Below, piece by piece: positions 5,668 to 61,528 of a DNA stretch of 64,000 nucleotides (the first letter of the stretch is position 1; every line of letters begins with the position of its first letter). Position numbers and translations under genes: made by a program. The stretch is from Sinorhizobium mexicanum (GTDB lineage Bacteria > Pseudomonadota > Alphaproteobacteria > Rhizobiales > Rhizobiaceae): positions 1,869,676-1,933,675 of the forward strand of contig NZ_CP041241.1 of the NCBI RefSeq assembly GCF_013488225.1. Reading direction: 5' to 3'. Below the pieces are notes generated by a model. The model was not told the DNA's origin, made no database searches, and saw only the letters and a program-made list of their open reading frames with translations.

Positions 5668-7569
5668 CTATCCGGCGAGCCCGCGATAGATGGCGGGGAG
5701 TGCGGCCGGTAGCCGGGCAATGTTGCCGACCATGGCATAGCCGTTCTGGCCGAACATCGTCGGCACATAGGATCGCGCCTCGCGGTCGACCGTGACGGCA
5801 AATGTGCTGATCCCGCTTCGACGCGCCTCCGACACGGCACGCCGGCTGTCTTCCAGCGCGAAGCGCCCCTCGTAGTGGTCGACGTCGTTCGGCTTGCCGT
5901 CGGTTAGCACCAGAAGCAGTTTCTTGCGATTTGGCTGCTTGTGGAGTTCGGCCGAGGCATGCCGGATCGCGGCGCCGATGCGGGTGTAATAGCCGGGCTT
6001 GAGCGCGGCGATCCGCGCCTCGACGAGACCGCTCATCGGCTCATCGAAAGCTTTGACGGTTTCCACCCGCACCCAGTCGCGCCGGCGCGACGTGAAGGTC
6101 AGGATCGAATGGTTGTCGCCGCAGGCGGCCAGGCCATGCGCCAGGATCGTCAACGCCTCCTTCTCGACATCGAGAACGCGGTGATTGTCCGACCAGGAAT
6201 CGGTCGACAGCGACACGTCGACAAGGATGGTGACGGCAAGGTCATGCGCCTGCGGCCGGCTCATCAGGTGAATGCGATCGCTTCCCTGGCCGCCTGCCGC
6301 AAGATCGGTGCGTGCGCGAACTACGGCATCGAGATCGAGGTCGGCGCCGTCCATCTGCGCGCGCAGGATCTCATGACGCGGTCTGAGCACCTCGAACTGG
6401 CGCCGCACGCGACGAATGAGGCTTTGCGTCTCGGATGTCAGTTCGGCGCGGTCGGCGAGCGCGGAAGCGGGGGAAGCCAACACGCGGCAATGGTCCTTGA
6501 GATAGGTACCGGTGCGGTAGTTCCACTCCGGATAAGTGTGTTCGGCCGTCAAGGGTGTGACGTCGACCGCCTCGGGCGGCAGGTCCAGATCGAACCGGAA
6601 GCGTGCGCTCGGGCGCCCCTTCCGTTCGCCGAGCGTCATCTCGTCCAGCTCTTCCGCCGCCTTCGCGTCGTGGTCGTCGCGGTCGTCGGCAGGCCGGTCG
6701 ACATTGACCATCTCCGACATCGCGAGGATCTTCTCGAAGCGGTTGAGAATGAAGGGGCTGCGGTCGCCCTTGCGATTCTCGGCGTTCTCTCGGGCCGCGA
6801 CATGGCGTTCGGTCTCGACGGCGGGCGACGCTGCCCTGCCCTGCGCCGGCTCATCGTCTTCGCGCCGCGTCTCGGTTTCGGCGCGCACCAGCGCATCCGG
6901 CCAGAGCGGCAGAGGCAGCATCGGCAGGTAGCCGGGCGGTGTGCGATGCGGGAAGATGACGGGCAAGGTCTTGTCCGGCTCCCCCGCGGCCTTCCGCAAC
7001 ATGCCGAGAATGCGGTTTTCGACATGCTGTTCTATGGATGGCAGCGTGCCTCGGGTCCGCTCCGCAAGGACGGCAGCCGCCAGCCGGCGGTAACGCGCGC
7101 GCATGCCCGGAAACGTGCCCAACACGGCAGCGACCGTTACTTCCGCACGGGCGAGTGCGGCAAGATCGCAGCGGAGCAGATCGGCCTCCGCCAGCGGTTC
7201 CAGCGACATCGTCGCCATGTAGGCGACAAGCCAGAAATAGAGGTCGCGGTTGAGGTCCCTGTCCGGGAAAAGATCGATCTCCGCCGGCAGCATCAGCGAT
7301 GCGTGATCGCGCCCGGGCTGCACCAGCTTCTCTTCCCCGAGCCCCACCCTCTGGCGCCATTTCAACCTGTGGCCCGAGGTACGCCCACGCGCCGGGGCGA
7401 TCTGCACTGCGCTCTCGCCGCCGTGTCCGCGGAACGAGATCGCGAGCACCGGCAGGAGATCGGCGAGCTGCACCGCGTGCTCCGGGTGGCGCCGCCACGT
7501 GCGCGTGTTGCCGATGAAGCGGTGCCAGGCACGGCCGACCGTTTCTTCCAGTTCGAGGAAATCGAGCAT
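5668..7569 (-). CDS. norD: Nitric oxide reductase activation protein NorD
   Basis: 633 aa. NorD works with the AAA ATPase NorQ to load the non-heme iron of NorB and activate nitric oxide reductase. The C-terminal third is a von Willebrand A domain with the MIDAS signature DVSLSTDS and later LTDGKPND. The middle is charged and low-complexity (Asp/Glu/Arg-rich), as in other NorD proteins. Last gene of norCBQD. It ends facing the cupin gene. The start has GAGG upstream, and the norQ stop is 10 nt away. Confidence 0.93.
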   Translation of the reverse strand: MLDFLELEETVGRAWHRFIGNTRTWRRHPEHAVQLADLLPVLAISFRGHGGESAVQIAPARGRTSGHRLKWRQRVGLGEEKLVQPGRDHASLMLPAEIDLFPDRDLNRDLYFWLVAYMATMSLEPLAEADLLRCDLAALARAEVTVAAVLGTFPGMRARYRRLAAAVLAERTRGTLPSIEQHVENRILGMLRKAAGEPDKTLPVIFPHRTPPGYLPMLPLPLWPDALVRAETETRREDDEPAQGRAASPAVETERHVAARENAENRKGDRSPFILNRFEKILAMSEMVNVDRPADDRDDHDAKAAEELDEMTLGERKGRPSARFRFDLDLPPEAVDVTPLTAEHTYPEWNYRTGTYLKDHCRVLASPASALADRAELTSETQSLIRRVRRQFEVLRPRHEILRAQMDGADLDLDAVVRARTDLAAGGQGSDRIHLMSRPQAHDLAVTILVDVSLSTDSWSDNHRVLDVEKEALTILAHGLAACGDNHSILTFTSRRRDWVRVETVKAFDEPMSGLVEARIAALKPGYYTRIGAAIRHASAELHKQPNRKKLLLVLTDGKPNDVDHYEGRFALEDSRRAVSEARRSGISTFAVTVDREARSYVPTMFGQNGYAMVGNIARLPAALPAIYRGLAG

Positions 7570-7579
7570 CGCCAGGACC

Positions 7580-8392
7580 TCAGGCTATCAGGGAATCGGC
7601 CACTTCCAGCAGCGCTGCCCTGACGTCCGGCTCGTCGGTCAGGGGTTCTATCATGGCGGCTCGAACTGCCTGCTTGGCCGGCATGCCGGCATCGATCAGC
7701 GAAGCGCAGTAGACGAGCAGTCGGGTCGAAACGCCCTCTTCGAGATCGTGGCCCTTGAGCACTCTCAGACGCGCGGCGAGATCGACGAGCCGGGCCACCT
7801 GCGCTTCCGCGAGGCCGCTTTCCGCCGAGACGACGGCGATTTCCTGAGCCTTCGGCAGGAAATCGAACTCGATCGCGACGAAACGCTGCCGGGTGCTCGG
7901 CTTCAGGCTCTTGAGGAGATTCTGGTAGCCGGGATTGTAGGAAACGACCAGCATGAAACCGGACGGCGCCTCGAGCATCTCGCCGGTGCGCTCCAAGGGC
8001 AACATGCGGCGATCGTCGGTGAGCGGATGCAGGACGACGGCGACGTCCTTGCGCGCCTCGACGATCTCGTCGAGATAGCAGATGCCGCCCTCGCGCACTG
8101 CGCGCGTCAGCGGTCCGTCGACCCAGATGGTGTCGCCACCCTTCAGCAGATAGCGGCCGGTGAGATCCGCGGCGGCAAGATCGTCATGGCAGGAAACGGT
8201 CGAAAGCGGCAGGCCGAGTCTTGCCGCCATATGGCTGACAAAGCGCGTCTTGCCGCAGCCGGTCGGGCCTTTCAGCAAGAGCGGCAATTGCCGGACCCAG
8301 GCAGTTTCAAACAGCGCGCATTCATTGCCGAGCGGACTGTAGTGCGGAATGTCGGCGGTTGGGAGGGTGGCGTTCGGCAGGACGAAATTCAT
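7580..8392 (-). CDS. norQ: Nitric oxide reductase chaperone ATPase NorQ
   Basis: 270 aa. MoxR-type AAA+ ATPase with Walker A GPTGCGKT at residues 42-49 and Walker B GGICYLDEI. VVSYNPGYQNLLKSLKPSTRQRF is typical of the NorQ/CbbQ family, and the C-terminal CbbQ domain (GHDLEEGVSTRLLVYCASLI) is present. The start at 8392 (MNFVLPN) has GGAG upstream and gives the usual family length; a 10-residue longer frame is not needed. It pairs with NorD. Confidence 0.94.
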   Translation of the reverse strand: MNFVLPNATLPTADIPHYSPLGNECALFETAWVRQLPLLLKGPTGCGKTRFVSHMAARLGLPLSTVSCHDDLAAADLTGRYLLKGGDTIWVDGPLTRAVREGGICYLDEIVEARKDVAVVLHPLTDDRRMLPLERTGEMLEAPSGFMLVVSYNPGYQNLLKSLKPSTRQRFVAIEFDFLPKAQEIAVVSAESGLAEAQVARLVDLAARLRVLKGHDLEEGVSTRLLVYCASLIDAGMPAKQAVRAAMIEPLTDEPDVRAALLEVADSLIA

Positions 8393-8467
8393 TTTGGTCT
8401 CCGTGACAAACAGTCGAAGCAAGCGGAAAGACCGACCCCGACGTGTTGTCGGGGCCAGTCATGTAGG

Positions 8468-9814
8468 TCATTCGGCGGGCTGGATCGAAGCGCTGAGCCG
8501 TTCGCTGCGTTCCCGGCCGGGAACCAGCACGGCCCAGATGAACATCAGTGCCGAGACGAGGACGACCGCACCGGAGCCGAGGCGGATCCAGTAGAACAGC
8601 GCCAGCTGGTCCTGCACGTCCATGTAGCTTTCGCCAAGCACACGCTGCAGGTGAACCTGAAGGATGCCTGCGAAGGTGAGCGCGAAGGTCATCACCGACA
8701 TGGCGGTGCACATCGCCCAGAAGCTGACGATCGAGAGCCACTGGTTGTAGGGCTGGCGGCCGCGGATTTCCGGGATCGCATAGGCCATCACCGCCAGGTT
8801 CAGCATCACATAGGCGCCGAAGAAGGCGAGGTGGCCGTGGGCCGCAGTCACCTGCGTGCCGTGGGTGTAGTAGTTCACCGAAGACAGCGTGTGCAGGAAG
8901 CCCCAAACGCCGGCGCCGAAGAAGGCCATCACCGAGCAGCCGATCGACCAGAGAAGGGCAGCGCGGTTCGGGTGCTTGCGCCCGGCCTTCCAAGTCATCA
9001 CGAAGGTGAAGATCACCATGGTGAAGAACGGTGCGACTTCGAGCGTCGAGAAAAGCGAGCCGATCCACTGCCAGTAGCCGGGGGCGCCGATCCAGTAGTA
9101 GTGGTGACCGGTGCCGAGGATGCCCGAGAAGAGCGCCAGGCCGACGATGACGTAGAGCCACTTCTCGACGACCTCACGGTCGATGCCGTTGAGCTTGATC
9201 ATCAGGAAGGCGAGCACCGATGCCATGATCAGTTCCCAGACGCCTTCAACCCACAGGTGGACGACATACCACCAGTACATCTTGTCGAGCGCCAGGTTCA
9301 TCGGGTTGTAGAAGGCGAACAGGAAGAAGATCGCAACGCCCCACAGGCCGAAGATCAGGATGTTGGTAACCGTCGTCTTGCGGCCTTTGAGAACGGTAAG
9401 CGTGATGTTGTAGAGGAACATCAGCGCCACCACGACAATGCCGACCTTGATCGCGAAGGGCTGCTCGAGAAACTCGCGGCCCTCGTGAATATGGAAAAGG
9501 TACCCCACCACCGCGACGGCCGCCGCGATCAGGAACAGCCAGAACTGGGCGACGGCAATCTTGGTGCTGTAAAGCTCCGTTTCCGCTTCCTCTGGCAGGA
9601 GATAATAGGTGGCGCCCATGAAGCCCATCAGCAGCCAGACGATCAGCGCATTGGTGTGCACCATGCGCACGATGTTGAACGGCAGGAGCTCGGAGAGCGT
9701 GTTGGGCAGGACGTAGATGGTGCCGGCGAGAACACCGAACAGCACCTGGGCGAGAAACAGGCCGAGTGCGCCATAAAAATAGAGCATCGCGACCTTCTGG
9801 GTCTGGTATTTCAT
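8468..9814 (-). CDS. norB: Nitric oxide reductase large subunit NorB
   Basis: 448 aa, 12 transmembrane helices. Catalytic subunit of cytochrome-c-dependent nitric oxide reductase, which reduces 2 NO to N2O in the inner membrane. MVHTNALIVW gives the heme b ligand in helix II. The acidic helix HLWVEGVWELI is followed by GTGHHYYWIG (non-heme FeB histidines) and HGHLAFFGAYV (heme ligands). The length equals that of standard cNorB. norC lies 24 nt upstream, so the two are co-transcribed. Confidence 0.97.
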   Translation of the reverse strand: MKYQTQKVAMLYFYGALGLFLAQVLFGVLAGTIYVLPNTLSELLPFNIVRMVHTNALIVWLLMGFMGATYYLLPEEAETELYSTKIAVAQFWLFLIAAAVAVVGYLFHIHEGREFLEQPFAIKVGIVVVALMFLYNITLTVLKGRKTTVTNILIFGLWGVAIFFLFAFYNPMNLALDKMYWWYVVHLWVEGVWELIMASVLAFLMIKLNGIDREVVEKWLYVIVGLALFSGILGTGHHYYWIGAPGYWQWIGSLFSTLEVAPFFTMVIFTFVMTWKAGRKHPNRAALLWSIGCSVMAFFGAGVWGFLHTLSSVNYYTHGTQVTAAHGHLAFFGAYVMLNLAVMAYAIPEIRGRQPYNQWLSIVSFWAMCTAMSVMTFALTFAGILQVHLQRVLGESYMDVQDQLALFYWIRLGSGAVVLVSALMFIWAVLVPGRERSERLSASIQPAE

Positions 9815-9838
9815 GGTTCTTTACTCCAATCGCAACGC

Positions 9839-10294
9839 TTAGCCGGCTTCGTTCGGTGGCCAGTTCTGGGTCTTGATGCGGCTCGTCCACTCCAGGAAGT
9901 CGGCGAGATCGTTGAGCTCCTGTTCGGTGAGGTTGAACTGCGGCATCTGCCTGCGCCCTTCGACGCCGGAGGGTTGCGCCGCCATCCAGGCCTTCAGCGT
10001 CTCGCGCGCGCCGTCCGGATCCTTGTCGCCGCCCCAGCGCTTCCAGACATTGCCGAGTTCTGGCGCGAAATAGGCGCCTTCGCCGAGAAGCGTGTGGCAG
10101 TTGATACAGGAGTTCTTTTCCCAGACGTGCTTGCCGCGCGCGACGGAGTCCGTCAGCGTCGTCTCGTCCGTCGAGCTCGTTTTCATGTAGTAGTGGCTAT
10201 GGGCGGTCAGCCCGACGAATATTGCAAAGAAGAAGAAGGACCCGCCGTAGAAGACGTTTCGGGCCCCGGTCTTGGTGAGGCGTTCTGCCATCAC
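9839..10294 (-). CDS. norC: Nitric oxide reductase cytochrome c subunit NorC
   Basis: 151 aa. Membrane-anchored monoheme cytochrome c that passes electrons from soluble carriers to NorB. One N-terminal transmembrane anchor (about residues 14-32) is followed by the heme site CINCH at 63-67. The Met ligand is likely in RQMPQFNLTEQE. AAAGGA precedes the start. An FNR/NnrR-type box lies 144 nt upstream, between norF and norC. Confidence 0.96.
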   Translation of the reverse strand: MMAERLTKTGARNVFYGGSFFFFAIFVGLTAHSHYYMKTSSTDETTLTDSVARGKHVWEKNSCINCHTLLGEGAYFAPELGNVWKRWGGDKDPDGARETLKAWMAAQPSGVEGRRQMPQFNLTEQELNDLADFLEWTSRIKTQNWPPNEAG

Positions 10295-10431
10295 GTGGTC
10301 CTTTCGATTTCAGATGGCCGCGAAAGCGTGGCCGGCTTGATCTGATCCCCTCCCCGTTTGGCGCCGCCTGTGGCGGAGCCGACGAATGTCCGGGGCACGA
10401 TCCATGTCTATGGATTTCCCGCGCGCGTTCT

Positions 10432-10445
10432 TTGCGTTTCGGCAA
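10432..10445 (-). promoter_or_regulatory. NnrR-type box upstream of norC
   Basis: On the minus strand TTGCC-GAAA-CGCAA; on the plus strand TTGCG-TTTC-GGCAA. It is a nearly perfect inverted repeat close to the NnrR consensus TTGCG-N4-CGCAA. It lies after the norF stop, suggesting a second promoter for norCBQD. Confidence 0.6.
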
Positions 10446-10460
10446 ACAAGGAGAGCGGTT

Positions 10461-10739
10461 TCAAACGGATGGCATGCTGGTGGCAAACAGCTTCGCCGCT
10501 GCCACCAGCGCAAGGATCAGCGGCCAGACGAGAAGCCCGCGCCGCATCGCGGCCGGACCGGAGCGCAGGCCCATGAAATCCAGGATGATCAGTCTGGACT
10601 TGATGAGTGCCAGGACGAGAACGGCGGAAACGACGACAGGGGCACGGCCTTGAAAGGCGACGGCCAACATGCCCGAAAGCACGATGGCAACGAGCACGAT
10701 CCAGGTTCGAGCGAGTTGGTTTCGATTGCGGTCCGTCAT
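10461..10739 (-). CDS. norF: NorF, small membrane protein (COX4-like)
   Basis: 92 aa with three hydrophobic helices (TWIVLVAIVLSGMLAVAF, APVVVSAVLVLALIKSRLIILDFM, GLLVWPLILALVAAAKLFA). The segment KSRLIILDFMGLR is characteristic of the small oxidase subunit IV-like proteins called NorF. NorF and NorE together improve nitric oxide reductase activity or assembly. It starts 4 nt after the norE stop. Confidence 0.85.
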   Translation of the reverse strand: MTDRNRNQLARTWIVLVAIVLSGMLAVAFQGRAPVVVSAVLVLALIKSRLIILDFMGLRSGPAAMRRGLLVWPLILALVAAAKLFATSMPSV

Positions 10740-10743
10740 GACG

Positions 10744-11301
10744 TCATACCAGATAGATGATCGGAAACATCACGATCCAGATGAGATCGATGACGTGCCA
10801 GAGGGTTGTTATCAGGGTTACGTTGCCGGGCGTCGGGCGCCAGACTACGAGAAGCAGGATCAGGCCGCCGAACACCACATGCAGCAGGTGGAAGCCGGTG
10901 ATCAGGAAATAGAGCTCGAAGAAGGCCCCGAACCGGGCAAGGTCGCCGCTTGCCAGTTCACCGCTATATTCCGTGAGCTTGATCGCGACGAAGACGAAGC
11001 CGAGCAGGGCAGCCAGGACGAGGGCACGCCGGCGCCCGCCGGGTAGAGCGAATTTGCGCGCGGCGAGCGCAGCCTGCCACCCGCTCGTCAAAAGCACCAG
11101 CGTGTTGATGCCCGCGAGCAAGGGGTTGAGTTCGTTTCGCCCGGCAGCAAAAGCGTCGGCCTGCAGGAAACCGGTGACGAGGAAGGCCACGAGCAGAATG
11201 CCGAAGGCCGCGAGTTCGCTCCAGACCAGAATCCAGAGCAGAAGCTCATCTGCGGGCGCTTCCTCTCCCGCTTCGATATCAGATGTTACCCGTGCATCCA
11301 T
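10744..11301 (-). CDS. norE: NorE, cytochrome oxidase subunit III-like protein
   Basis: 185 aa with five transmembrane helices in subunit III order. These include LLLWILVWSELAAFGILLVAFLV, FELYFLITGFHLLHVVFGGL and LITTLWHVIDLIWIVMFPIIYLV; the last two carry the family histidines and HVIDLIW motif. NorE is an accessory protein of nitric oxide reduction. The ATG at 11301 has AAGGGAGAGG upstream, while the longer frame begins at a GTG (11334) without a site. An FNR-type box is centred 66 nt upstream. Confidence 0.9.
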   Translation of the reverse strand: MDARVTSDIEAGEEAPADELLLWILVWSELAAFGILLVAFLVTGFLQADAFAAGRNELNPLLAGINTLVLLTSGWQAALAARKFALPGGRRRALVLAALLGFVFVAIKLTEYSGELASGDLARFGAFFELYFLITGFHLLHVVFGGLILLLVVWRPTPGNVTLITTLWHVIDLIWIVMFPIIYLV

Positions 11302-11360
11302 GCCGCCTCTCCCTTGATCGGAAACGATCGGCACTTAGGCGGGCCGGCAAAGCGATGTCT

Positions 11361-11748: not shown

Positions 11749-11762
11749 TTGCGATATGTCAA
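11749..11762 (+). promoter_or_regulatory. FNR/NnrR-type box upstream of the hemerythrin-nnrU operon
   Basis: TTGCG-ATAT-GTCAA. The centre is 69 nt before the ATG at 11825. It overlaps a more upstream possible start at 11756, which argues against that start. Confidence 0.55.
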
Positions 11763-11824
11763 AGAAGCGAGCCGGCTCGACGGCTAGACGATTGCACCAG
11801 GATAAATCGACTGGAGCCCGGCTG

Positions 11825-12277
11825 ATGGCTGGAAGAGAGACAATGCAACGAAGCCGCATGCTGGAAACCGGCTATGACGCGCTGTTGGAATTATGTGATC
11901 GGCTGGAGGCAATCGCCGACGCCTTGCCGAACGCAATCGATGTGACGCGCTACGATGAGATCGCGAACACGCTGGTACCGACGCTTGGCAGCCTGCACGA
12001 ACTGGAGGAACAAGTCCTCTTTCGGCAACTTCGCTTGCAACCGGACGGTCGCAACGTCACGACGCTGATCGAGCGTCTTCGCGCGGAGCACGCACATGAT
12101 GAGAAAGCCGCGGCGGATGTCGCCGAGGTCCTGCGCGAGCTGCTTCACGGTCGCTGCCGGCTAAGCTGGGACGCGATCGGCTATATGCTGCGTGCCCTCT
12201 TCGAGAGCCTTCGCCGCCATGTCGCGACCGAGCGCCTGCTGCTTGTCGAGAGCCGCCGGGGTGCCTGTCATGCGTGA
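11825..12277 (+). CDS. Hemerythrin-like (HHE) domain protein
   Basis: 150 aa, all-helical. Helix-borne metal-ligand residues are visible in LGSLHELEEQVLFRQL (H..E), RAEHAHDEKAAADV (H, H, D/E) and LFESLRRHVATERLLL (H..E), the pattern of a di-iron four-helix bundle. Such proteins bind oxygen or nitric oxide, or donate iron for Fe-S repair as YtfE/Ric does. The ATG at 11825 with GGAG 8 nt upstream is preferred; an ATG at 11843 is also possible. Its stop overlaps the nnrU start, so the two are coupled. Confidence 0.75.
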   Translation: MAGRETMQRSRMLETGYDALLELCDRLEAIADALPNAIDVTRYDEIANTLVPTLGSLHELEEQVLFRQLRLQPDGRNVTTLIERLRAEHAHDEKAAADVAEVLRELLHGRCRLSWDAIGYMLRALFESLRRHVATERLLLVESRRGACHA

Positions 12278-12962
12278 ATTTTTGCTGGCCTTCGCTGTCT
12301 TTCTCGCGCTGCACATGGTGCCCGCCATGCCGAAGCTTCGCGAGCGACTCATTCAGCGGCTGGGCCGAAAAAGTTATTTCGCCGGCTACTCGCTGCTGTC
12401 GACCCTAGCGCTCGTCTGGGTCTTCCACGCGGCGCTGACACTTGATTTCATACCGCTCTGGGACCCGGCACCATGGCAGGCCTGGGTGACGTTCGTACTC
12501 GCACCGCTTGGTATTTTCCTCGTTCTTGCGGGCCTCTTCAGCGAGAACCCGCTTTCCGTCTCGATCTTTCAGGGTATCGGACGGATGGGGGCGATCGTCG
12601 GCATCACGCGCCACCCGGTGCTCTGGGGGTTCCTCCTCTGGGCAGCGGGACACGTCGTGCCGAACGGCGATGTTCGCTCGCTCGTGCTCTTTGGCGGTTT
12701 CGCGCTCTTTGCCGCGAGCGGTTTCCTGATGGTTGAGCGGCGCGCACGCCGTCGCCTGGGCGACAAGTGGCCAAGCGCTGCCGCCGGCACGTCGATCTGG
12801 CCCTTCGCCGCGATCCTCAGTGGCCGCGCCCGCTTCCGTCTCGATCCGGTCCTGGTGCTGTCGGCCTTCGCCACGGCCGCAATCACGCTCTGGCTGCTTG
12901 CGGGCGGCCACTACGCCCTCTTCGGCGCCGATCCGCTGCTGCAAGCCTTTCCGATTTATTGA
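12270..12962 (+). CDS. nnrU: NnrU family membrane protein
   Basis: 230 aa, about six transmembrane helices. ITRHPVLWGFLLWAAGHVVPNGD is the hallmark of NnrU (isoprenylcysteine methyltransferase-like fold) proteins. nnrU is tied to nitrite and nitric oxide metabolism in rhizobia, but its biochemical role is not settled. The ATG at 12270 overlaps the hemerythrin stop by 8 nt. It converges with ubiX downstream. Confidence 0.9.
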   Translation: MREFLLAFAVFLALHMVPAMPKLRERLIQRLGRKSYFAGYSLLSTLALVWVFHAALTLDFIPLWDPAPWQAWVTFVLAPLGIFLVLAGLFSENPLSVSIFQGIGRMGAIVGITRHPVLWGFLLWAAGHVVPNGDVRSLVLFGGFALFAASGFLMVERRARRRLGDKWPSAAAGTSIWPFAAILSGRARFRLDPVLVLSAFATAAITLWLLAGGHYALFGADPLLQAFPIY

Positions 12963-12993: not shown

Positions 12994-13569
12994 TTATCCC
13001 TGCCAAGCTTCCGCGAGCGGCGCGATCGGCAGCGCCAGAAGATCTATGGCTCGCGCGGCGAGATGATCGACGATTGCCTCGACGCTTGCCGGCCGGTGAT
13101 AGAATCCCGGCACCGGCGGCATGACGATCGCACCCATTTCAGTGACGGCGCACATGTTGCGCAGGTGCCCGAGGTGGAGCGGCGTCTCGCGCGTCATCAG
13201 CACCAGCCGTCGGCGTTCCTTCAGATGTACGTCGGCGGCGCGGACGAGGAGATTGTCGGCAAGTCCATTGGCGATCGCCGCCAGCGTGCGCATCGAGCAG
13301 GGTGAGACGATCATGCCGGCGGTCGGAAAAGACCCGCTGGCGATCGCCGCGCCGATGTTGTCGTGATCGTAGACTCGATCGGCCTTTTCGAGCATTCGCA
13401 ACAGCGCGTCCGGCCCCACCTCGTGGCTCAATGTCCGGTGTGCCGCCGGCGACATGACCAAATGCGTCTCGACCCCGTCGATCCGCGCAAGTCGTTCGGC
13501 GATGCGCAACGGGATGGCTGCTCCCGAAGCGCCGGTCACGCCGACGACTATCCTCAATCTTCCCGTCAT
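12994..13569 (-). CDS. ubiX: UbiX-type flavin prenyltransferase
   Basis: 191 aa. Attaches dimethylallyl to FMN to make the prenylated-FMN cofactor of UbiD decarboxylases. Flavin-site motifs seen are VVGVTGASGAAIPLRIAERL, IASGSFPTAGMIVSPCSMRTLAAIANGLADNLLVRAADVHLKERRRLVLMTRETPLHLGHLRNM and MPPVPGFYH. A longer frame exists, but the ATG at 13569 overlaps the ubiD stop as ATGA. That coupling suits an enzyme pair needed in step. Confidence 0.95.
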   Translation of the reverse strand: MTGRLRIVVGVTGASGAAIPLRIAERLARIDGVETHLVMSPAAHRTLSHEVGPDALLRMLEKADRVYDHDNIGAAIASGSFPTAGMIVSPCSMRTLAAIANGLADNLLVRAADVHLKERRRLVLMTRETPLHLGHLRNMCAVTEMGAIVMPPVPGFYHRPASVEAIVDHLAARAIDLLALPIAPLAEAWQG

Positions 13570-15074
13570 TGGCGGTCTCCCAGACCCAGCTCGGCCCACA
13601 TCCGGTCCACATCGGCCTTCACCTCCGGCGACATGTCGAGCACCTTCCCCCACTCGCGGTCGGTCTCCGCACCGATCTTGGTGGTCGCATCGAGCCCGAG
13701 CTTGCCACCGAGACCGGAGCGCGGCGAGGCGAAGTCTAGATAGTCGATCGGCGTGTCGGCGACGATCGTCACGTCACGGCTTGCGTCGAAGCGCGTGGAA
13801 AGCGCCCAGACGACATCCGGCCAGCTGCGCACATTGATGTCGGGATCGACGACGATGATGAGCTTCACGTAGCTGAACTGCGGCAGCATCGACCAGAGTC
13901 CCATCATCAACCGCTTCGCCTGGCCCGGATAACGCTTGTCGATCGCCACGACCATTGCCCGATAGGAGCAGGCCTCAGGCGGCAGCCACAGATCGACGAT
14001 TTCCGGAAACTGCTTCTTCACCAGCGGCACGAACAGCACGTTCATCGCTTCGCCAAGACGCGACGGTTCATCGGGCGGCCGGCCGGTATAGGTGGAAAGA
14101 TAGATCGGATTTCGGCGCATCGTGATCGCCGAAAGCGTCATTACCGGGAAGCGGTCGACGGAGTTGTAATAGCCGGTATGATCGCCGTAGGGCCCTTCGT
14201 CCGCCGTCTCGACGGCGGACACGGTGCCTTCGAGCACGATTTCCGCGTTTGCCGGCACCGGAAGCGGCACCGTCCGGCCTGCAGCCAACGGCGTTCGGCG
14301 CCGGCGAATGAGTCCTGAAAAATTGAGTTCGCTCAATCCGTCCGGCAACGGCATCACCGAGGCAAGGATGGTGGCCGGATCCGCACCGACCGCAACCGCG
14401 ACCGGCATGTCCCGGCCCTGTCGCTGCCAAAGGCGGTGATGGCGTGCGCCGCCGCGGTGAGCGAGCCAGCGGACGATCGCGCGGTCTTTGCCCAGAACCT
14501 GCATGCGGTAGATGCCGACATTGATGTCCGTCGGATCGTCCGGCGCCATGGTGATGACGAGCGGCCAGGTGATGAGCGGCGCCGGCTCGCCCGGCCAGCA
14601 CCACTGGATCGGCAGGTTCGCAAGATCGAGCTCCGGACCGCTCCAGACGATCTCCTGGCACGGCGCTCGGCTATGATGCTTCGGCCGCATCGAGAGCGCG
14701 GAGCGCAGCAACGGCAGCTTCTCCCAGGCATCGCGCAGCGATCCCGGCGCACGGGGATCACGCAGCTCCGCGAGTTCCTGGGCAAGGAAGGGTAATCCGC
14801 CCGGCGCCAGACCGAAGCCGCGCTCGATCCGCGCTTGCGCGCCAAACAGGTTGGCGAGCAGCGGAATTGCGTGCACGCGGCCGGAAGCATCGACCGGCTT
14901 TTCGAACAGGAGCGCTGGTCCGCCCGATGCAAGGACGCGCCTGTGGATTTCGGTCACTTCATGGACGAGCGAGACCGGCCGCGAAATCCGCTTGAGCTCG
15001 CCGGCGCGCTCCAGCGCCAAAGCAAAATCCTGAAGCGAGGCGAAGTGCTCTGCGAGACGGAAGTGTTTGTTCAT
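13566..15074 (-). CDS. ubiD: UbiD family decarboxylase
   Basis: 502 aa, the normal UbiD length. It decarboxylates 4-hydroxy-3-polyprenylbenzoate in ubiquinone synthesis, using prenyl-FMN from UbiX. Seen are ISRPVSLVHEVTEIHRRV, the active-site region DEGPYGDHTGYYNSVDRFPV and LIIVVDPDINVRSWPDVVWAL. Frame choice: the ATG at 15074 (MNKHFRLAEHF) gives the family N-terminus, and 200 upstream residues are dropped. It is coupled to ubiX and reads away from ubiT. A dedicated copy next to ubiTUV suggests use during anaerobic growth; a UbiD acting on another aromatic acid is the alternative. Confidence 0.92.
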   Translation of the reverse strand: MNKHFRLAEHFASLQDFALALERAGELKRISRPVSLVHEVTEIHRRVLASGGPALLFEKPVDASGRVHAIPLLANLFGAQARIERGFGLAPGGLPFLAQELAELRDPRAPGSLRDAWEKLPLLRSALSMRPKHHSRAPCQEIVWSGPELDLANLPIQWCWPGEPAPLITWPLVITMAPDDPTDINVGIYRMQVLGKDRAIVRWLAHRGGARHHRLWQRQGRDMPVAVAVGADPATILASVMPLPDGLSELNFSGLIRRRRTPLAAGRTVPLPVPANAEIVLEGTVSAVETADEGPYGDHTGYYNSVDRFPVMTLSAITMRRNPIYLSTYTGRPPDEPSRLGEAMNVLFVPLVKKQFPEIVDLWLPPEACSYRAMVVAIDKRYPGQAKRLMMGLWSMLPQFSYVKLIIVVDPDINVRSWPDVVWALSTRFDASRDVTIVADTPIDYLDFASPRSGLGGKLGLDATTKIGAETDREWGKVLDMSPEVKADVDRMWAELGLGDRQ

Positions 15075-15108
15075 GCCGCCTCTTTGTGCCGGTGATTTCC
15101 GCCTGTCT

Positions 15109-15122
15109 TTGATGTGGGACAA
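15109..15122 (+). promoter_or_regulatory. FNR-type box between ubiD and ubiT
   Basis: TTGAT-GTGG-GACAA. The centre is 67 nt before ubiT and only 41 nt from ubiD, so spacing fits activation of ubiTUV better than of ubiDX. Confidence 0.5.
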
Positions 15123-15182
15123 ACACGGGCGACGGCAGCCGGCTAACATCGGGAGAACGTTCACACAGTTCGCAGGCCCCTC

Positions 15183-15689
15183 ATGACCGTTCCCACAGCG
15201 ATGGCCGTTCCGCTCCGGCTCATCCCCATTCCCGCCATTGAGCGGGCGACAAGGCTCGTCTTCTCCCACGTCATGGCGCGCCATCCCGGCCTTTTCGATC
15301 GCCTCGGCGAACACGCGGCCAAGCGGTATGGCTTCATTCCGTCCGACCTGCCGGTCGGTTTCCTGGTCGAGCCTGCCAAGAACCGTATATCCGTACACCG
15401 CAAGCCCAATGTGCCGGTGACCGATGCTTCCGTCACGGGCGGCTTCGTCCTTCTCCTCGGCCTGCTCGAAGGCCGGCTCGACGGTGACGCCGTTTTCTTC
15501 TCGCGTGACCTGACGGTAACCGGCGACATGGAAGCGATGCTGGCGCTGCGCAATGCGCTCGACGACTGCAACATCGACCTGCCCTCCGACATCGGCAGCC
15601 TCGCAGGCCCCTTCGCACCGCTGATCCGGCGGGCCGCAGCTGAGATCAGAAGCCGCGTCCTGCCCAGGGAGGCCGGCCAATGGAACTGA
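15183..15689 (+). CDS. ubiT: UbiT, SCP2-domain lipid-binding protein
   Basis: 168 aa. An SCP2 sterol-carrier domain covers most of the protein (VGFLVEPAKNRISVHRKPNVP, TGGFVLLLGLLEGRLDGDAVFFSRDLTVTGDMEAMLALRNALDD). UbiT binds the polyprenyl ubiquinone intermediates and is needed only for oxygen-independent synthesis. Its end overlaps ubiU by 10 nt. The first of three tandem genes behind an FNR-type box. Confidence 0.93.
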   Translation: MTVPTAMAVPLRLIPIPAIERATRLVFSHVMARHPGLFDRLGEHAAKRYGFIPSDLPVGFLVEPAKNRISVHRKPNVPVTDASVTGGFVLLLGLLEGRLDGDAVFFSRDLTVTGDMEAMLALRNALDDCNIDLPSDIGSLAGPFAPLIRRAAAEIRSRVLPREAGQWN

Positions 15690-16657
15690 TCTGCCCGGCC
15701 GGCACGCCGGCCGCCTTCCGCGAAGCCGTCGATGCCGGAGCCGATGCCGTCTATTGCGGTTTTCGTGACGAGACCAATGCCCGCAACTTCCCGGGGCTGA
15801 ACTTTTCCCGCGACGAGCTGAAGGCGGCGATCGCCTATGCCCGTCAGCATGGAGCGATGACCTTCGTTGCCATCAACACCTTCATGCGCGCCGGTCGCGA
15901 AAAACTCTGGCACGAAGCGGTGGACGATGCCGTGCGCCTCGGGGCCGACGCCGTCATCCTCGCCGATTTCGGTTTGATGGCCTATACCGCCGAGCGCTAT
16001 CCCGACCAGCGCCTGCACGTATCGGTCCAGGCCTCCGCCGCCAACGCGGATGCGGTCAATTTCCTGGTCGAGACGTTTCGGGCAAAGCGCGTCGTGCTGC
16101 CGCGCATCCTCACCATACCCGACATCGCCCGCCTCGCGCGGCAGATCCGCTGCGAGATCGAGGTTTTCGTCTTCGGCGGGCTCTGCGTGATGGCTGAGGG
16201 GCGGTGTTCGCTCTCCTCCTATGCGACCGGCAAGTCGCCGAACATGAACGGTGTCTGTTCTCCGGCGAGCCACGTCCGCTACCGCGAGGATGGACGCGAA
16301 CTCGTCTCCGAACTCGGCGATTATACGATCAATCGCTTTCCCGCCGGCGAGGCGGCTGGTTATCCGACGCTCTGCAAGGGACGCTTCAACGTCGCGGACG
16401 AACGCGGCTACGCCTTCGAGGACCCGGTTTCGCTCGACGTGATGGACCACGTCGACCTGTTGCGCGAGGCCGGCGTCAGCGCGCTGAAGATCGAGGGACG
16501 CCAGCGCGGCAAGGCCTATGTCGCCGAGGTCGTGTCGGTGATGCGCCGCGCGGTAGCCGCCGATGCCGCCGAGCGGCCGGCTCTCATCTCGCGCCTGAGA
16601 CTCTTGAGCGAAGGCCAGCGGACGACGTCCGGTGCCTATGAAAAGCGCTGGAGGTAG
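15680..16657 (+). CDS. ubiU: UbiU, U32 peptidase-like ubiquinone hydroxylase component
   Basis: 325 aa. UbiU and UbiV form a complex with [4Fe-4S] clusters that hydroxylates ubiquinone precursors without oxygen. The four cysteines of the cluster fall at residues 169, 176, 193 and 232 (GLCVMAEGRC, NGVC, TLC), the same numbering as in E. coli UbiU. The U32 core (MELICPAGTPAAFREAVDAGADAVYCGFRD) opens the protein. ubiV follows after 3 nt. Confidence 0.95.
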   Translation: MELICPAGTPAAFREAVDAGADAVYCGFRDETNARNFPGLNFSRDELKAAIAYARQHGAMTFVAINTFMRAGREKLWHEAVDDAVRLGADAVILADFGLMAYTAERYPDQRLHVSVQASAANADAVNFLVETFRAKRVVLPRILTIPDIARLARQIRCEIEVFVFGGLCVMAEGRCSLSSYATGKSPNMNGVCSPASHVRYREDGRELVSELGDYTINRFPAGEAAGYPTLCKGRFNVADERGYAFEDPVSLDVMDHVDLLREAGVSALKIEGRQRGKAYVAEVVSVMRRAVAADAAERPALISRLRLLSEGQRTTSGAYEKRWR

Positions 16658-16660
16658 ATC

Positions 16661-17581
16661 ATGACCGTCACCACGCTTCCAAGCCTCAGCCTTGGTCCGG
16701 TTCTCTACCTCTGGGATGGACCGAAATGGCGCGATTTCTACTTCCGCATCGCCGACGAGGCGCCGATCGCGCATGTGGTCATCGGCGAAACGGTCTGCTC
16801 GAAGCGCCTGCATTTCATCGAGCCGCATGTCGGCGAGGTTGTCGAGCGGCTGGAACAGGCGGGAAAGAGCGTCAGCCTCTCCTCGCTGTCGCTGGTCACG
16901 CTCGAACGCGAAAGCCAGCTGGTGCGGGCTCTCGCGCGCGACAGCGCGCACCCGGTCGAAGCCAACGACCTGTCTGCGCTCGGGCTGCTTGCCGGCAAGC
17001 CGCATTCCATCGGACCGTTGATCAATGTGTATAACGGCGCGACCGCGCGGCTGCTCGCCTCACGCGGTGCGACGAGCATCTGCCTGCCACCGGAACTGCC
17101 GATGACATCCGTGCGCGAGATCGTCCGCGATGCGCCCGGCGTGGCCTTCGAGATATTCGCGTTCGGGCGAGTCCCGCTGGCGATCTCGGCCCGCTGCGCG
17201 CACGCCCGGTCCAAGGGACTGGTCAAGGATAATTGCCAGTTCATCTGCGGCGACGACCCGGATGGCCTAGTGGTCGAAACGCTCGACCGTCAGCCTTTTC
17301 TCGTCCTGAACGGCGTACAGACCGTCTCGCACACATGCCAGGCGCTTATCCAGGAACTGCCGGAACTGGCGGCCGCCGGCATTTCGCGGATCCGCCTTTC
17401 GCCGCAGGACTGCGACATGGTCTCCGTCGCCCGGGCATTCGACGATGCAATCGCCGGCAGGTCCGCCCCCGCCGATGCCATCGCCCGTCTTCAAGAGGCC
17501 TATCCCGGTACGCGCCTTTCGAACGGGTTCCATTACGCCCAGCAGGGTGCCGCCTGGATCGCGGGCAACGCATCAACTTAG
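16661..17581 (+). CDS. ubiV: UbiV, U32 peptidase-like ubiquinone hydroxylase component
   Basis: 306 aa. Partner of UbiU in oxygen-independent hydroxylation. Cluster cysteines are at 46 (GETVCSKRLHF), 179, 192 and 196 (ARCAHARSKGLVKDNCQFIC), with the spacing of E. coli UbiV. The reaction supplies ubiquinone to the Nap and Nor chains when oxygen is absent. Confidence 0.95.
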   Translation: MTVTTLPSLSLGPVLYLWDGPKWRDFYFRIADEAPIAHVVIGETVCSKRLHFIEPHVGEVVERLEQAGKSVSLSSLSLVTLERESQLVRALARDSAHPVEANDLSALGLLAGKPHSIGPLINVYNGATARLLASRGATSICLPPELPMTSVREIVRDAPGVAFEIFAFGRVPLAISARCAHARSKGLVKDNCQFICGDDPDGLVVETLDRQPFLVLNGVQTVSHTCQALIQELPELAAAGISRIRLSPQDCDMVSVARAFDDAIAGRSAPADAIARLQEAYPGTRLSNGFHYAQQGAAWIAGNAST

Positions 17582-17594
17582 CCGGAGTCTCACC

Positions 17595-17984
17595 ATGACA
17601 CGTGAATTCGACATGCTCGCAGATGAAACCACACACGATGAGAATCTCGTGACGGTCATCAGCCAGATCCGCAGGTTGATCGATGGCGCTTCGCTCGAAT
17701 GCGGCTGCCGTACACGCGTCGACGAATTGCTGCTTCGCTTCGAAAGCCTGACGGCGAGGCAACGCGAAAAGCGCATACTCGACCAGGCCCGGCGCCAGCG
17801 GCGCCGCATCGCCACGATCATGGAACTGCTTCACGAGCTTGACGAGATCGGCTATGGGGATGCCGACCGCAGCGTGCTGGTGGAAGCGCGGCTGCTTTTC
17901 GAGGACATCGCCGAAGCTGCGCTGCAAGGCGCGCGGCTGCTCAATGTCGCCGCCCTACCGAGTTCGAAGGCAGGTGTGCGATGA
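17595..17984 (+). CDS. Conserved-looking helical protein of unknown function
   Basis: 129 aa from the ATG at 17595 (GGAG 9 nt upstream), 13 nt after ubiV. It is predicted to be almost wholly alpha-helical and highly charged. Points to note are GASLECGCRTRVDELLLRF with a CxC pair and an Arg-rich helix (REKRILDQARRQRRRIATIMELLHELDEIG). The bundle-like pattern recalls HHE or regulatory helical proteins, but no metal-ligand set is clear. Position downstream of ubiTUV suggests it belongs to the same transcript. No family recognised. Confidence 0.75.
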   Translation: MTREFDMLADETTHDENLVTVISQIRRLIDGASLECGCRTRVDELLLRFESLTARQREKRILDQARRQRRRIATIMELLHELDEIGYGDADRSVLVEARLLFEDIAEAALQGARLLNVAALPSSKAGVR

Positions 17985-18596: not shown

Positions 18597-18640
18597 CTCG
18601 AGCGTCCTTTGTGCGTTCACTTGAACGCACGGCGCTCTAG
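18597..18640. repeat. Mosaic palindromic repeat, type A, overlapping the napC stop
   Basis: CTCGAGCGTCCTTTGTGCGTTCAC paired with TTGAACGCACGGCGCTCTAG. The minus-strand TAG at 18639-18637 that ends napC lies inside the repeat arm. Confidence 0.65.
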
Positions 18641-19332
18641 AAGGCGCTCGCGTGCAATTCCTTCATTGCCCGACGCAGTTCGTCGATCGGAGTTGAACTG
18701 GTGGCGGTTTCGCCTTCCAGTTCCCGCGGTACCTTCCAGCCCGGATCGATGCCCTCCATGTTCGGGAGCTCGTGGGCGATGCCCTTGTGGCAATCGATGC
18801 AGGTTGCCCGGCCGGGAAGCAGGTAGCGGGTGTGAATCGCCGCCGCCCGTTCCGTCTGCCTCTGCAGGTCCATCGCCACGGACGAATGGCAATTGCGGCA
18901 CTCGAGACTGTCGTTTGCCTTCAGCCGCGCCCATTCATGCTGGGCGAGTTCCAGCCGATGCTCGAGGAATTTCGGGCGGGTATTGATCGTCCCGAAGATC
19001 TTGCCCCAGACCTCCTTCGACGCCTGCATCTTGCGGGCGATCTTGTCGGTCCAGCGATGCGGCACATGACAGTCCGGACAAGTCGCTCTGACCCCGGAGC
19101 GGTTGGAGAAGTGGATCGTCCGCGTCAGCTCCTGATAGACGTTGTCGCGCATCTCGTGGCAGGAGGTGCAGAAGGCCTCGGTATTGGTGAGCTCGAGCGC
19201 GGTGTTGAAGGCACCCCAGAACATCACGCCGCCGACGAAGCCGCCAAGCGTCAGAAAGCCGAGGCTCAGTGTTCCTGCCGGCGTGCTGACGACGCGCCAC
19301 GCCCAGAGGACGACTTTCCTGATCCATTCCAT
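18637..19332 (-). CDS. napC: NapC tetraheme cytochrome c
   Basis: 231 aa. Membrane-anchored NapC/NirT quinol dehydrogenase that passes electrons from ubiquinol to NapB. One transmembrane helix (about residues 20-45) is followed by four heme sites: CTSCH (55-59), CPDCH (85-89), CRNCH (145-149) and CIDCH (178-182). It starts 4 nt after the napB stop and is the last gene of napEFDABC. Confidence 0.97.
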
Positions 19333-19336
19333 CGCG

Positions 19337-19840
19337 TCACTCGCTTCCCGCAGGCTTGGCGCCCAGCTCGCTCATATCCTTGAAGGTATTGCCGACAAGT
19401 GGCTTGGCGTCGGCCTGCGGCACATGGCAGGCGGTGCAGAAGTAACGCCTTGGCGAAACGTCCGCGAGCATCTGGCCCTCGCGGGTCATGTAGTGCGTGA
19501 CGCTGATCATTGGCGCGCCGGATTCCTGGGTGAACTCGCGCCTGTGGCAGGAGAGGCACCGGTTGGTGTTGACCGAGAGCTGATAGCCCTCGATCGAATG
19601 CGGGATGACCGGCGGCTGGTCAGGATAATTGCGCTCCTTGCGAACGTCATCGGTGATCCACTTGGGCAAGGGCGCCGCGGGGCCGGTCTCCATCGCGGGA
19701 GACCGCCCCACCAGTTGTGGCATGACCGTCGGTATCACCTGGGCAATCGCGGTTGTCGTGACGAACAGCAAGAGTCCTGCCACGACCACCATCCATTCAG
19801 GCCGTCTCAGACGGCGACGGGTATAATCTTGACCGCGCAT
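19337..19840 (-). CDS. napB: NapB diheme cytochrome c subunit
   Basis: 167 aa. Periplasmic electron-transfer subunit of nitrate reductase. An N-terminal export signal ([27 protein letters not shown]) precedes two heme sites, CLSCH and CTACH, with the NapB context [20 protein letters not shown] and [21 protein letters not shown]. The ATG at 19840 overlaps the end of napA by 34 nt; the ATG at 19792 is an alternative but would shorten the signal. Confidence 0.95.
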
Positions 19841-22314
19841 TTTTTGAAATCCGTCTGTTTGGAGATGGGATCCGTGGCGTCGAGGGTAACTTTGTTTATG
19901 AGCTTGCTGGCGTCGAACCACGGAACGAAGATCACGCCCGGCGGCATGCGGTTGCGACCACGCGTATCGATACGGGCGCGCATCTCGCCGCGCCGGGAAA
20001 CGACCCGGACTTCGGCGCCCTGATTGATGCCGCGCTTGCGGGCATCGTCGGCGTTCATGAAGCAGACGGCGCCCGGGAAGGCCCTGAAGAGCTCGGGAAC
20101 ACGCAAGGTCATCGAACCGGAATGCCAGTGCTCCAGCACGCGGCCGGTCACCAGCCAGATGTCGTATTCCTCATCGGGCGATTCGGCCGGCGGCTCGTAG
20201 GGCACGGCGATGATGACCGCCTTGCCGTCCGGCTGGCCGTAGAAGTTCACGCCCTCCCCAGGCTTGACGAAGGGATCGAAACCCTCGCGATAGCGCCAGA
20301 GCGTCTCCTTGCCGTCGACCACCGGCCAGCGCAACCCGCGCACCTCGTGGTACATGTTGAAGGGTGCGAGATCGTGGCCGTGGCCGCGCCCGAAGGTGGC
20401 ATATTCCTCGAACAAGCCCTTCTGGATGTAGAAATCGAAGGCCTTGGCCTCCTGGTTGTCGTAGGCCGGATCGATCTCGCTGAGAGGAAAGCGATCCACT
20501 TCGCCGTTGCGGAAGATCACGTCGAACAGGGTCTTGCCGCGATATTCGGGGTTCGACTCGAGAATGTCGGCCGGCCAGACCTCGTCGGTCGTAAAGCGCT
20601 TGGAGAATTCCGCGATCTGCCAAAGGTCCGAGCGGGCCTCGCCGGGAGCCTGGACGAGTTGGCGCCAGACCTGGGTGCGACGTTCGGCATTGCCGTAGGC
20701 ACCCTCCTTCTCCACCCACATGGCGGCCGGCAGGATCAGGTCGGCACTCATCGCGGTGATCGTCGGGTAGGCGTCCGAGACGACAATGAAGTTGTCGGGG
20801 TTGCGATAGCCCTGCCAGGTCTCGTTGCTGGTATTCGGTGCAGCCTGGATGTTGTTGTTGACCTGCACCCAGTAGAAATTGAGCTTGCCGTCCTTGAGCA
20901 TGCGGTCCTGCAGGACGGCATGGTAGCCCGGCTTGTCGGGGATAATCCCCTTCGGGATGCGCCAGATCTCCTCGGCACGCTCCCGATGTTTGGGATTGGT
21001 CACCGTCATGTCGGCCGGAAGCCGATGGGCGAAGGTTCCGACCTCGCGCGCGGTGCCGCAGGCCGACGGCTGGCCGGTCAGCGAGAACGGGCTGTTGCCG
21101 GGCTCCGAGATCTTTCCCGTCAACAGGTGAATGTTATAGACCATCTGGTTTGCCCAGACGCCGCGCACATGCTGGTTGAAGCCCATGGTCCAGAGCGACA
21201 TGACCTTGCGGTCGGGATCGGCATAGAGTTCCGCCAACTGCTCCAGGAAGCCGGGATCGACGCCGGTCAATTCCGCCGTCTTCTCCAATGTGTAATCGGA
21301 AACGAATGCCTTGAAGGCTTCAAAGTCGATCGGTTCCATCTTGCCCGGATCGGCCGCGTTGGGAGCCGCCTTTTCCAAGGGATGTTCCGGTCGCAGGCCA
21401 TAGCCGATCTCGGTTACGCCGCGCACGAATCGCGTGTGGCGCTGCACGAAGTCCTGATTGACGCGACCGGTCTGGATGATGTGATTGGCGATATAATTGA
21501 GGATCGCCAGATCCGTTCCCGGCGTGAAGATGATCGGGATGTCGGCCAAGTCCATGCTGCGGTGGGTAAAGGTGGAAAGCACGGCGACGCGGACATGAGG
21601 TTGCCCCAGTCTGCGGTCAGCGACCCGCGTCCACAGGATCGGGTGCATTTCGGCCATGTTCGAGCCCCACAGCACGAAGGCGTCGGCGTGCTCGAAATCG
21701 TCATAGACACCCATCGGCTCGTCCATGCCGAAGGTGCGCATGAAGGCATAGGCGGCCGATGCCATGCAGTGGCGGGCATTGGGGTCGAGATTGTTGGAGC
21801 GAAAGCCGGCGCGCATCAGTTTCGTCGCCGCATAGCCCTCGAAGATCGTCCACTGTCCGGAGCCGAACATGCCGACGGCCGTCGGTCCCTTCTCCTTCAG
21901 AACTCTCTTCGCCTGCTCCGCCATCACGTCGAAGGCTTCGTCCCAGCTCACCGGCTCGAACTCGCCGTCCTTGGCGTAAGCGCCGTTCCGCTTGCGCAGG
22001 AGCGGCGTTTTCAGCCGATCGGCGCCATACATGATCTTCGAGAGGAAGTAGCCCTTGATGCAGTTGAGGCCGCGGTTGACCTCGGCCTGCATGTCGCCGT
22101 GCGTGGCGACCACCTGCCCTTCCTTCACGCCCACCATCACGCCGCAACCGGTGCCGCAGAAACGGCATGGCGCCTTCGACCATTTGATCTCCAGCGCGGT
22201 CACGCCGCCGGGAACAGGTTGCGCTGCGGCAGGAAGCGCGATGCCAGCGGTGGCCGCCGCTATGCCGGCCGCATGGGCCTTGAGGATGTCACGCCGCGTC
22301 AGTTCGCCGGTCAT
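19807..22314 (-). CDS. napA: Periplasmic nitrate reductase catalytic subunit NapA
   Basis: 835 aa. Molybdenum-bis-MGD enzyme that reduces nitrate to nitrite in the periplasm. The Tat signal is [12 protein letters not shown] at residues 6-17. The [4Fe-4S] cysteines are in CRFCGTGC (50, 53, 57) and NCIKGYF (85), and the likely Mo-coordinating Cys is in [12 protein letters not shown] (183). The frame continues upstream, but the ATG at 22314 gives the Tat signal and the family length of about 830. It overlaps napD by 26 nt. Confidence 0.97.
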
Positions 22315-22576
22315 TGCCGATCGTCTCCTCTTTCTCGACATGCTCGAACACGATGTTGGCCGCCACCACGCCTTCCAGCATGGAAATCTGCGACAGGCAC
22401 TCGCCGAGCATGCCCGTGCTCGTTCCTTCGATGACCACCACGATCTTGCCGCCCTGGTGGCCGTAAACCTCGACATTGCTCATTTGCGAAAGCATCGCCA
22501 AAACCTCGTCCTCCATCGCCGGAACGGCGACGATGACAGCGCTTGAGACGTGATAATTGCCCGGTGTGTCAGACAT
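22289..22576 (-). CDS. napD: NapD chaperone
   Basis: 95 aa. A ferredoxin-fold chaperone that binds the Tat signal of NapA and holds back export until the cofactor is inserted. The family pattern is visible in [44 protein letters not shown]. The ATG at 22576 overlaps the napF end by 8 nt. The tail overlaps napA. Confidence 0.93.
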
Positions 22577-24063: not shown

Positions 24064-24141
24064 TTCATCTTCTCCGTTGAACCACCGAGCCCTTGCCCGT
24101 GGTTGTCGCCCCGGAAATAGGCCGATGCCGACCTGCCGACT

Positions 24142-24155
24142 TTGACGCGCGTCAA
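24142..24155. promoter_or_regulatory. Perfect FNR/FixK-type palindrome upstream of pseudoazurin
   Basis: TTGACGCGCGTCAA, fully symmetric, 85 nt (centre) before the start at 24063. Confidence 0.75.
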
Positions 24156-60286: not shown

Positions 60287-60328
60287 GGGGCTTATTGGCG
60301 AATTTTGCGCAGTTTTTCGGAGAGGGCG

Positions 60329-61525: not shown

Positions 61526-61528
61526 TCG

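Follow-up and report, generated by a model that had tools for sequence, protein, structure and literature searches.

What is a ubiX-ubiD pair doing face to face with ubiT, ubiU, and ubiV among denitrification genes? The question is raised by a block of five genes in Sinorhizobium mexicanum, located in the 64,000-nucleotide stretch of DNA that was analysed (the window; positions 1869676-1933675 of contig C4, in a genome of 7.14 Mb and four contigs). A reading made from the sequence alone had described the block as a complete anaerobic ubiquinone module with a dedicated ubiX-ubiD pair. We consider it very probable that the block would serve in this strain as a five-gene switch for oxygen-free ubiquinone synthesis. 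The gene identities, the single copy, the island context, the control box, and the association of UbiD with UbiU come from this analysis, and the anaerobic-only need and the induction during denitrification come from relatives studied by others. The block consists of the following features.

12994..13569, minus strand: ubiX, flavin prenyltransferase, 191 aa (NF004685, PF02441, alignment with E. coli UbiX); its ATG overlaps the end of ubiD
13566..15074, minus strand: ubiD, predicted decarboxylase of 502 aa dependent on prenylated flavin mononucleotide (prFMN), with polyprenyl-4-hydroxybenzoate as the probable substrate (TIGR00148, PF01977, PF20695, PF20696, alignment with E. coli)
15109..15122, no strand assigned: CRP/FNR-superfamily box TTGATGTGGGACAA in the common upstream region (motif)
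15183..15689, plus strand: ubiT, SCP2-domain accessory factor, 168 aa (NF047962, Pfam SCP2, PF02036)
15680..16657, plus strand: ubiU, U32-family O2-independent hydroxylase subunit, 325 aa (NF047963, cysteines)
16661..17581, plus strand: ubiV, U32-family O2-independent hydroxylase subunit, 306 aa (NF047965, cysteines)

One operon, ubiD-ubiX, is read from the minus strand and the other, ubiT-ubiU-ubiV, from the plus strand, and the two diverge from a gap of 108 bases; ubiD and ubiX overlap by 4 bases and ubiT and ubiU by 10. The start of ubiX was taken as the ATG at 13569, and the listed open reading frame (ORF) starts at 13653. In the mechanism that we propose, UbiX would make prFMN, which UbiD would use to remove the carboxyl group of polyprenyl-4-hydroxybenzoate, and the Fe-S proteins UbiU and UbiV of the U32 family, aided by UbiT as lipid carrier, would hydroxylate the ring, a task for which O2 is needed in air. 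A CRP/FNR-type box stands in the upstream region common to both operons, so a FixK-, FnrN-, or NnrR-like regulator acting there may switch on the two together with the nitric oxide reductase (nor) and periplasmic nitrate reductase (nap) genes. Other enzymes would take over these steps in air; one of them is probably a UbiN-like flavin monooxygenase encoded on contig C1 that would decarboxylate and hydroxylate in one step.

The family assignments rest on curated models. UbiT passes NCBIfam NF047962 (65.5 bits against a cut-off of 46.9) with PF02036 present, UbiU passes NF047963 (504.7 against 440 bits), UbiV passes NF047965 (360.7 against 275 bits), and UbiX passes both NF004685 (254.5 against 188 bits) and TIGR00421 (213.7 against 108.9 bits). 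UbiD passes the family model TIGR00148 (466.3 against 244.85 bits) and has the three domains PF20695, PF01977, and PF20696. Alignment with the E. coli K-12 reference proteins, taken from NC_000913, gives identities of 53.2% for UbiD, 51.1% for UbiX, 49.2% for UbiU, 33.7% for UbiV, and 22.0% for UbiT. The sequence-only reading had placed the five genes where they are listed above, and the families, the alignments, and the cysteine positions all agree with it: Cys 169, 176, 193, and 232 of UbiU fall in E. coli columns 169, 176, 193, and 232, as it had claimed, and its C-N12-C-N3-C spacing in UbiV is right for Cys 179, 192, and 196, which together with Cys 46 align with E. coli 180, 193, 197, and 39, respectively. 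The EGPYGDHTGYYN of E. coli UbiD, a stretch that we take to be part of the prFMN site, is kept identical in UbiD here. All five ubiTUV and ubiXD genes are present, but the word "complete" does not extend to the ubiquinone pathway as a whole, whose enzymes for prenylation and methylation (UbiA, UbiG, and UbiE) are not encoded in the block.

The word "dedicated" requires more care. A genome-wide search returned one PF01977 match and one TIGR00421 match, the UbiD and UbiX of the window, and the second ubiX/ubiD pair that the earlier reading had proposed looking for was not found in the genome with these models. The pair is thus not an extra copy, and on its own a single pair would point to the housekeeping role that UbiD and UbiX have in E. 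coli; the relatives say otherwise, and it is through them, through the transcripts of Agrobacterium sp. 6Ca8, and through Rhodobacter capsulatus mutants that dedication is supported.

Two surveys, in which fragments were scored as absent, carry most of this argument. Among 247 genomes of the order, 52 have a ubiquinone-type UbiD and all 52 also have UbiU, 21 have UbiU alone, and 174 have neither; among 296 genomes of the family, the corresponding counts are 58 (all 58 with UbiU), 11, and 227. Ubiquinone-type UbiD therefore occurs in 0 of 174 and 0 of 227 genomes that lack UbiU. The two sets share at least 11 genomes, and the order count of UbiU comprises 73 genomes, 70 of them above the curated cut-off and three just below it. 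In the family survey, 27 of 32 UbiD-bearing genera also hold members without both genes, which suggests repeated joint gain or loss of UbiD and UbiU; four of these mixed genera (g119, g132, g141, and g186) hold UbiU-alone members as well. The two operons are divergent neighbours, judged by ubiD and ubiU, in 35 of the 52 UbiD genomes of the order (including G234). In a further 10, all of genus g63, the two genes lie at least 260 kb apart on one contig, and the remaining 7 are draft assemblies with the two genes on different contigs, which say nothing about linkage. Since co-occurrence without linkage depends on a single genus and on draft assemblies, our confidence in the five-gene switch was set slightly lower. 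Among 32 Rhizobiales loci from a collection of named genomes (L061-L092), ubiD accompanies ubiTUV in 32 of 32 and all five genes are present in 29, with norB or napA inside the fetched stretch in 16 (contig ends shorten some stretches). The closest UbiD in this collection, from which the window's own and very near genomes may be excluded, is that of Sinorhizobium terangae at 94%. Across another 48 loci (L093-L140), ubiU/ubiV was nearby in two (L101 and L103).

We considered and rejected the idea that the UbiD counts merely reflect the choice of cut-off. Of the 76 order genomes with a PF01977 match, 24 were left out of the ubiquinone-type count; sequences fetched from 11 of them are 27-33% identical to UbiD of the window, and the other 13 were excluded on score alone (204 bits or less). 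G234 falls below the score line with its UbiD split over contig ends and was scored as having the gene. In the family, 22 genomes with only 25-35% UbiD matches were scored as lacking it, as were the short UbiD pieces in G366, G381, G467, and G494, and UbiU was scored as absent at about 113 bits or less in G326, G484, and G519 and for a short piece in G287. The gene set, its logic, and the link to denitrification are already published for relatives; the new part is the rule, holding across the order, that a ubiquinone-type UbiD is present only alongside UbiTUV, which was not found in the searched literature as far as its available text extends.

The best of the competing explanations is that UbiD and UbiX are an ordinary housekeeping pair that works both aerobically and anaerobically, like its E. 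coli counterpart, and simply happens to adjoin ubiTUV, and we regard it as improbable. The E. coli precedent is real, in that both of its pathways use UbiD and UbiX (PMC6747719), and the sole pair in this genome and the expression of R. capsulatus ubiD in air (PMC10626278) fit the same idea, but in 238 of the 296 family genomes ubiquinone-type UbiD is absent or reduced to fragments. Even in the same genus, the three genomes without UbiU (G287, G366, and G501) have no UbiD or a fragment of it. Fragments in two same-genus genomes are a partial ubiD (L261) and a partial ubiU (L262), and a relative in another genus has a damaged nor-ubiX-ubiD stretch (L263). Transcripts speak against housekeeping as well: ubiX and ubiD are near-silent in air in Agrobacterium sp. 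6Ca8, with a baseline of about 5 transcripts per million, and rise 24.25-fold and 31.01-fold, respectively, during denitrification, when ubiA changes 1.01-fold (PMC12883736). In Sinorhizobium meliloti 1021 the same five genes lie on pSymA (L277) in the same arrangement with nor adjacent and 58-85% identity; the difference is that no nap gene was matched within the 19.5-kb fetched stretch. S. meliloti cured of pSymA is viable and grows 1.18-fold faster than the wild type in minimal medium, and the strain cured of both pSymA and pSymB is viable and grows 1.37-fold slower (PMC4207669; the other replicons were not checked for UbiD). If those replicons hold no such UbiD, the cured strains are ready ubiD-ubiX knockouts.

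Published systems come close to the proposed anaerobic role from several directions. Hyphomicrobium denitrificans has the same five genes as ubiXDTUV (Hden_0564-0568); ubiD and ubiX are each present once, nitric oxide reductase genes lie in the same cluster, and the set is regulated together with denitrification. It differs in being another genus and in that its ubiXDTUV transcripts depend on the sulfane-sulfur responsive sHdrR and SoxR, and its authors suggest unidentified replacements in air (PMC12423496). R. capsulatus supplies the genetics: deletions of ubiD-X and ubiU-V leave wild-type growth in air and no growth anaerobically, the ubiD-X mutant accumulates decaprenyl-hydroxybenzoate without O2, and a separate enzyme, UbiN, performs decarboxylative hydroxylation in air, although anaerobiosis in this organism is phototrophic and does not involve denitrification (PMC10626278). 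E. coli shares the protein families and the cysteine positions but has ubiD and ubiX located elsewhere, serving both pathways, and ubiT divergent from ubiUV (PMC6747719).

If UbiD is reserved for life without oxygen, another enzyme would have to decarboxylate in air. The genome has 26 PF01494 matches, of which seven were full-length enough for examination. Two of these (L218 and L219) pass UbiH/UbiF-type models. A third (L220), on contig C1, is salicylate-hydroxylase-like and passes no NCBIfam cut-off shown; its best matches in the Protein Data Bank (PDB) are 6-hydroxynicotinate 3-monooxygenase (174 bits), 4-hydroxybenzoate decarboxylase (8gsm, 164), and decarboxylative vanillate 1-hydroxylase (8x38, 156). 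Counted by hand, 295 of the 296 family genomes contain a match to it (E 1e-40 or better), all 13 genomes of at most 2.0 Mb among them. On its enzyme class we take the protein as the UbiN-like candidate and the probable aerobic decarboxylase, and it may be orthologous to R. capsulatus WP_013068139.1. The available part of an S. meliloti essentiality paper (PMC5929573) does not name it. The sole family genome without a match to this protein (G475, locus L266) has UbiD, UbiT, UbiU, and UbiV; it is a draft of 200 contigs, and a gap is possible. Coq4 was rejected as an aerobic substitute: this genome gave no match, and the 247 order genomes gave a single one, right at the threshold (22.9 bits at a cut-off of 22.9). 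Also rejected was an either/or rule between UbiD and the UbiN-like enzyme over the class, where 175 genomes counted by hand at E 1e-60 and 1e-50 divide into 25 with both, 58 with UbiD only, 17 with UbiN-like only, and 75 with neither, the UbiN-like profile being unspecific outside the family, with several copies per genome.

Several observations weigh against the five-gene switch and its extension to relatives. UbiD scores below the narrow E. coli-type equivalog NF008175 (590.1 against a cut-off of 788 bits) and for that reason is filed only as the UbiD-family member closest to E. coli UbiD. UbiU occurs without ubiquinone-type UbiD in 21 of the 247 genomes of the order and in 11 of the 296 of the family, so the pairing of UbiTUV with UbiD has exceptions. 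Both ubiquinone-type UbiD and the UbiN-like enzyme are missing, at the thresholds given above, from 75 of the 175 class genomes, so UbiN does not solve the problem everywhere. R. capsulatus ubiD is functional as well as expressed in air (PMC10626278). Finally, the surveyed genomes are related, and their counts are not independent; Fisher values computed for the two surveys take no account of this and carry no weight in our argument.

The UbiU-alone genomes have a structure of their own. In a tree of UbiU that holds 26 sequences from UbiD-less genomes (27 loci before duplicates were dropped), 22 of the 26 belong to two clades, of 18 and 4 members, so UbiU without UbiD is largely a matter of lineage and not of scattered loss. 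A linked substitute decarboxylase was sought among ORFs of at least 90 aa in the fetched flanks of the 21 order loci (L141-L161), with no unlinked search made, and no ORF family outside ubiTUV occurred in more than 8 of the 21; the recurring families come mostly from four loci of one genus. UbiTUV loci in genomes without ubiquinone-type UbiD comprise L141-L161 and L271-L274, and the phototrophs Rhodomicrobium and Rhodovulum are reported to lack ubiD (PMC10626278).

We lean, with moderate confidence, towards a general picture for the Rhizobiales in which the ubiquinone-type UbiD-UbiX now serves oxygen-free synthesis alone, UbiD persists only together with UbiTUV (gained and lost jointly, under a CRP/FNR box that senses O2 or NO), and a UbiN-like enzyme decarboxylates in air, while a second UbiTUV lineage, the UbiU clades of 18 and 4, would have to use another anaerobic decarboxylase. 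E. coli has one decarboxylase for both conditions, and in rhizobia the step appears to be split. Such a split raises two questions: what enzyme is responsible for the aerobic decarboxylation, and what takes the place of UbiD in the genomes with UbiTUV only. It would also tie the quinone supply of soil bacteria to denitrification and hence to N2O.

The control region fits joint regulation of the two operons. The sequence-only reading had called its motif an FNR-type box. A CRP/FNR-type TTG-N8-CAA does lie between the operons, but TTGATGTGGGACAA matches only 8 of the 10 fixed positions of TTGATN4ATCAA, and "CRP/FNR-superfamily box" is a safer name than "FNR box". With letter-identical sequences removed, 84 related divergent regions could be compared, and 81 of them contain TTG-N8-CAA, where base shuffles predict 2.5. 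Redundancy was rejected as the source of this count, which drops identical regions only and includes some loci fetched twice: clustering at 98% leaves 77 of 80 (2.5 expected), at 90% 72 of 75 (2.3), and at 80% still 55 of 58 (1.8). Six of the 81 boxes are perfect FNR boxes and 50 have the FixK2 form TTG(A/C)-N6-(T/G)CAA, as quoted in PMC6710368; the NnrR box is given as ctTTGcgnnnncgCAAag by Rodionov 2005 (PMC1274295). In Bradyrhizobium diazoefficiens, bll7628-bll7627, annotated as "sterol-binding protein" and "U32 family peptidase" and by description ubiT-ubiU, carry the box TTGTTCCCGCTCAA and are nnrR-dependent (PMC6710368), and an identical TTGTTCCCGCTCAA box lies upstream of ubiT in genome G121 (L019 and L042, one place). 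A word search of the available text of PMC6710368 found neither ubiD nor ubiX.

The block is flanked by nor genes on one side and nap genes on the other, which bears out its description as lying inside a denitrification island. The neighbouring features are as follows.

5668..11334, minus strand: norD, norQ, norB, norC, and norE-like nitric oxide reductase genes (Pfam VWA, CbbQ/NorQ, COX1, cytochrome c, COX3)
11756..12962, plus strand: hemerythrin-domain protein and NnrU-family protein, convergent with ubiX (PF01814, PF07298)
18637..22476, minus strand: napC, napB, and napA, periplasmic nitrate reductase (Pfam)
60305..62533, plus strand: repA-like and repB-like partition genes, which mark a repABC-type replicon

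The nor genes have the identical order in the annotation of Ensifer canadensis, and a radical-SAM/HemN-like protein is also among the neighbours. The claim that oxygen-independent hydroxylation by UbiTUV and decarboxylation by UbiXD are both supplied here for nitrate or nitric oxide respiration is supported by these findings.

This setting also bears on the suggestion that UbiD decarboxylates another aromatic acid, with the link to denitrification reflecting anaerobic degradation of aromatics, which we find very unlikely. The UbiD family is broad, and the surveyed genomes do contain other UbiD-type decarboxylases (27-33% identity in the order, for the 11 of 24 that were aligned, and 25-35% in the family), but UbiD here shares 53% identity with E. 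coli UbiD and matches E. coli-type UbiD in the PDB at 561 bits, with the next group at 161. In a tree, UbiD of UbiU-bearing genomes stands apart from the paralogues (the other 46 of L093-L140), with weak support (0.56). The surveys find ubiquinone-type UbiD only with UbiU, and the genes identified around it, norD through napA, are of denitrification type, accessory, or unknown. That the block is a relic no longer in use is scarcely credible: some relatives keep fragments only (L261, L262, and L263), but here five open frames, the cluster cysteines, and the promoter box are all kept.

An 18.5-kb stretch finds its best matches in plasmids, one of S. chiapasense (1.63 Mb) and one of S. terangae (2.09 Mb). 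RepA- and RepB-like genes lie at 60305-62533, so contig C4 is very likely a repABC megaplasmid or chromid. Directly after ubiV, a small protein without a Pfam match (17445-17984, plus strand) is possibly an extra part of the module; its counterparts, which adjoin ubiV or lie close to it, match at 81% in L061 and at 36-51% in L075, L076, L077, L089, L270, and S. meliloti pSymA (L277). A gene for a DUF454 protein (18027-18395, plus strand) adjoins it and is linked likewise in L061, L075, and L076. An ORF at 23617-24207 on the minus strand resembles a pseudoazurin precursor by eye and has a TTGACGCGCGTCAA box at 24142, near its start.

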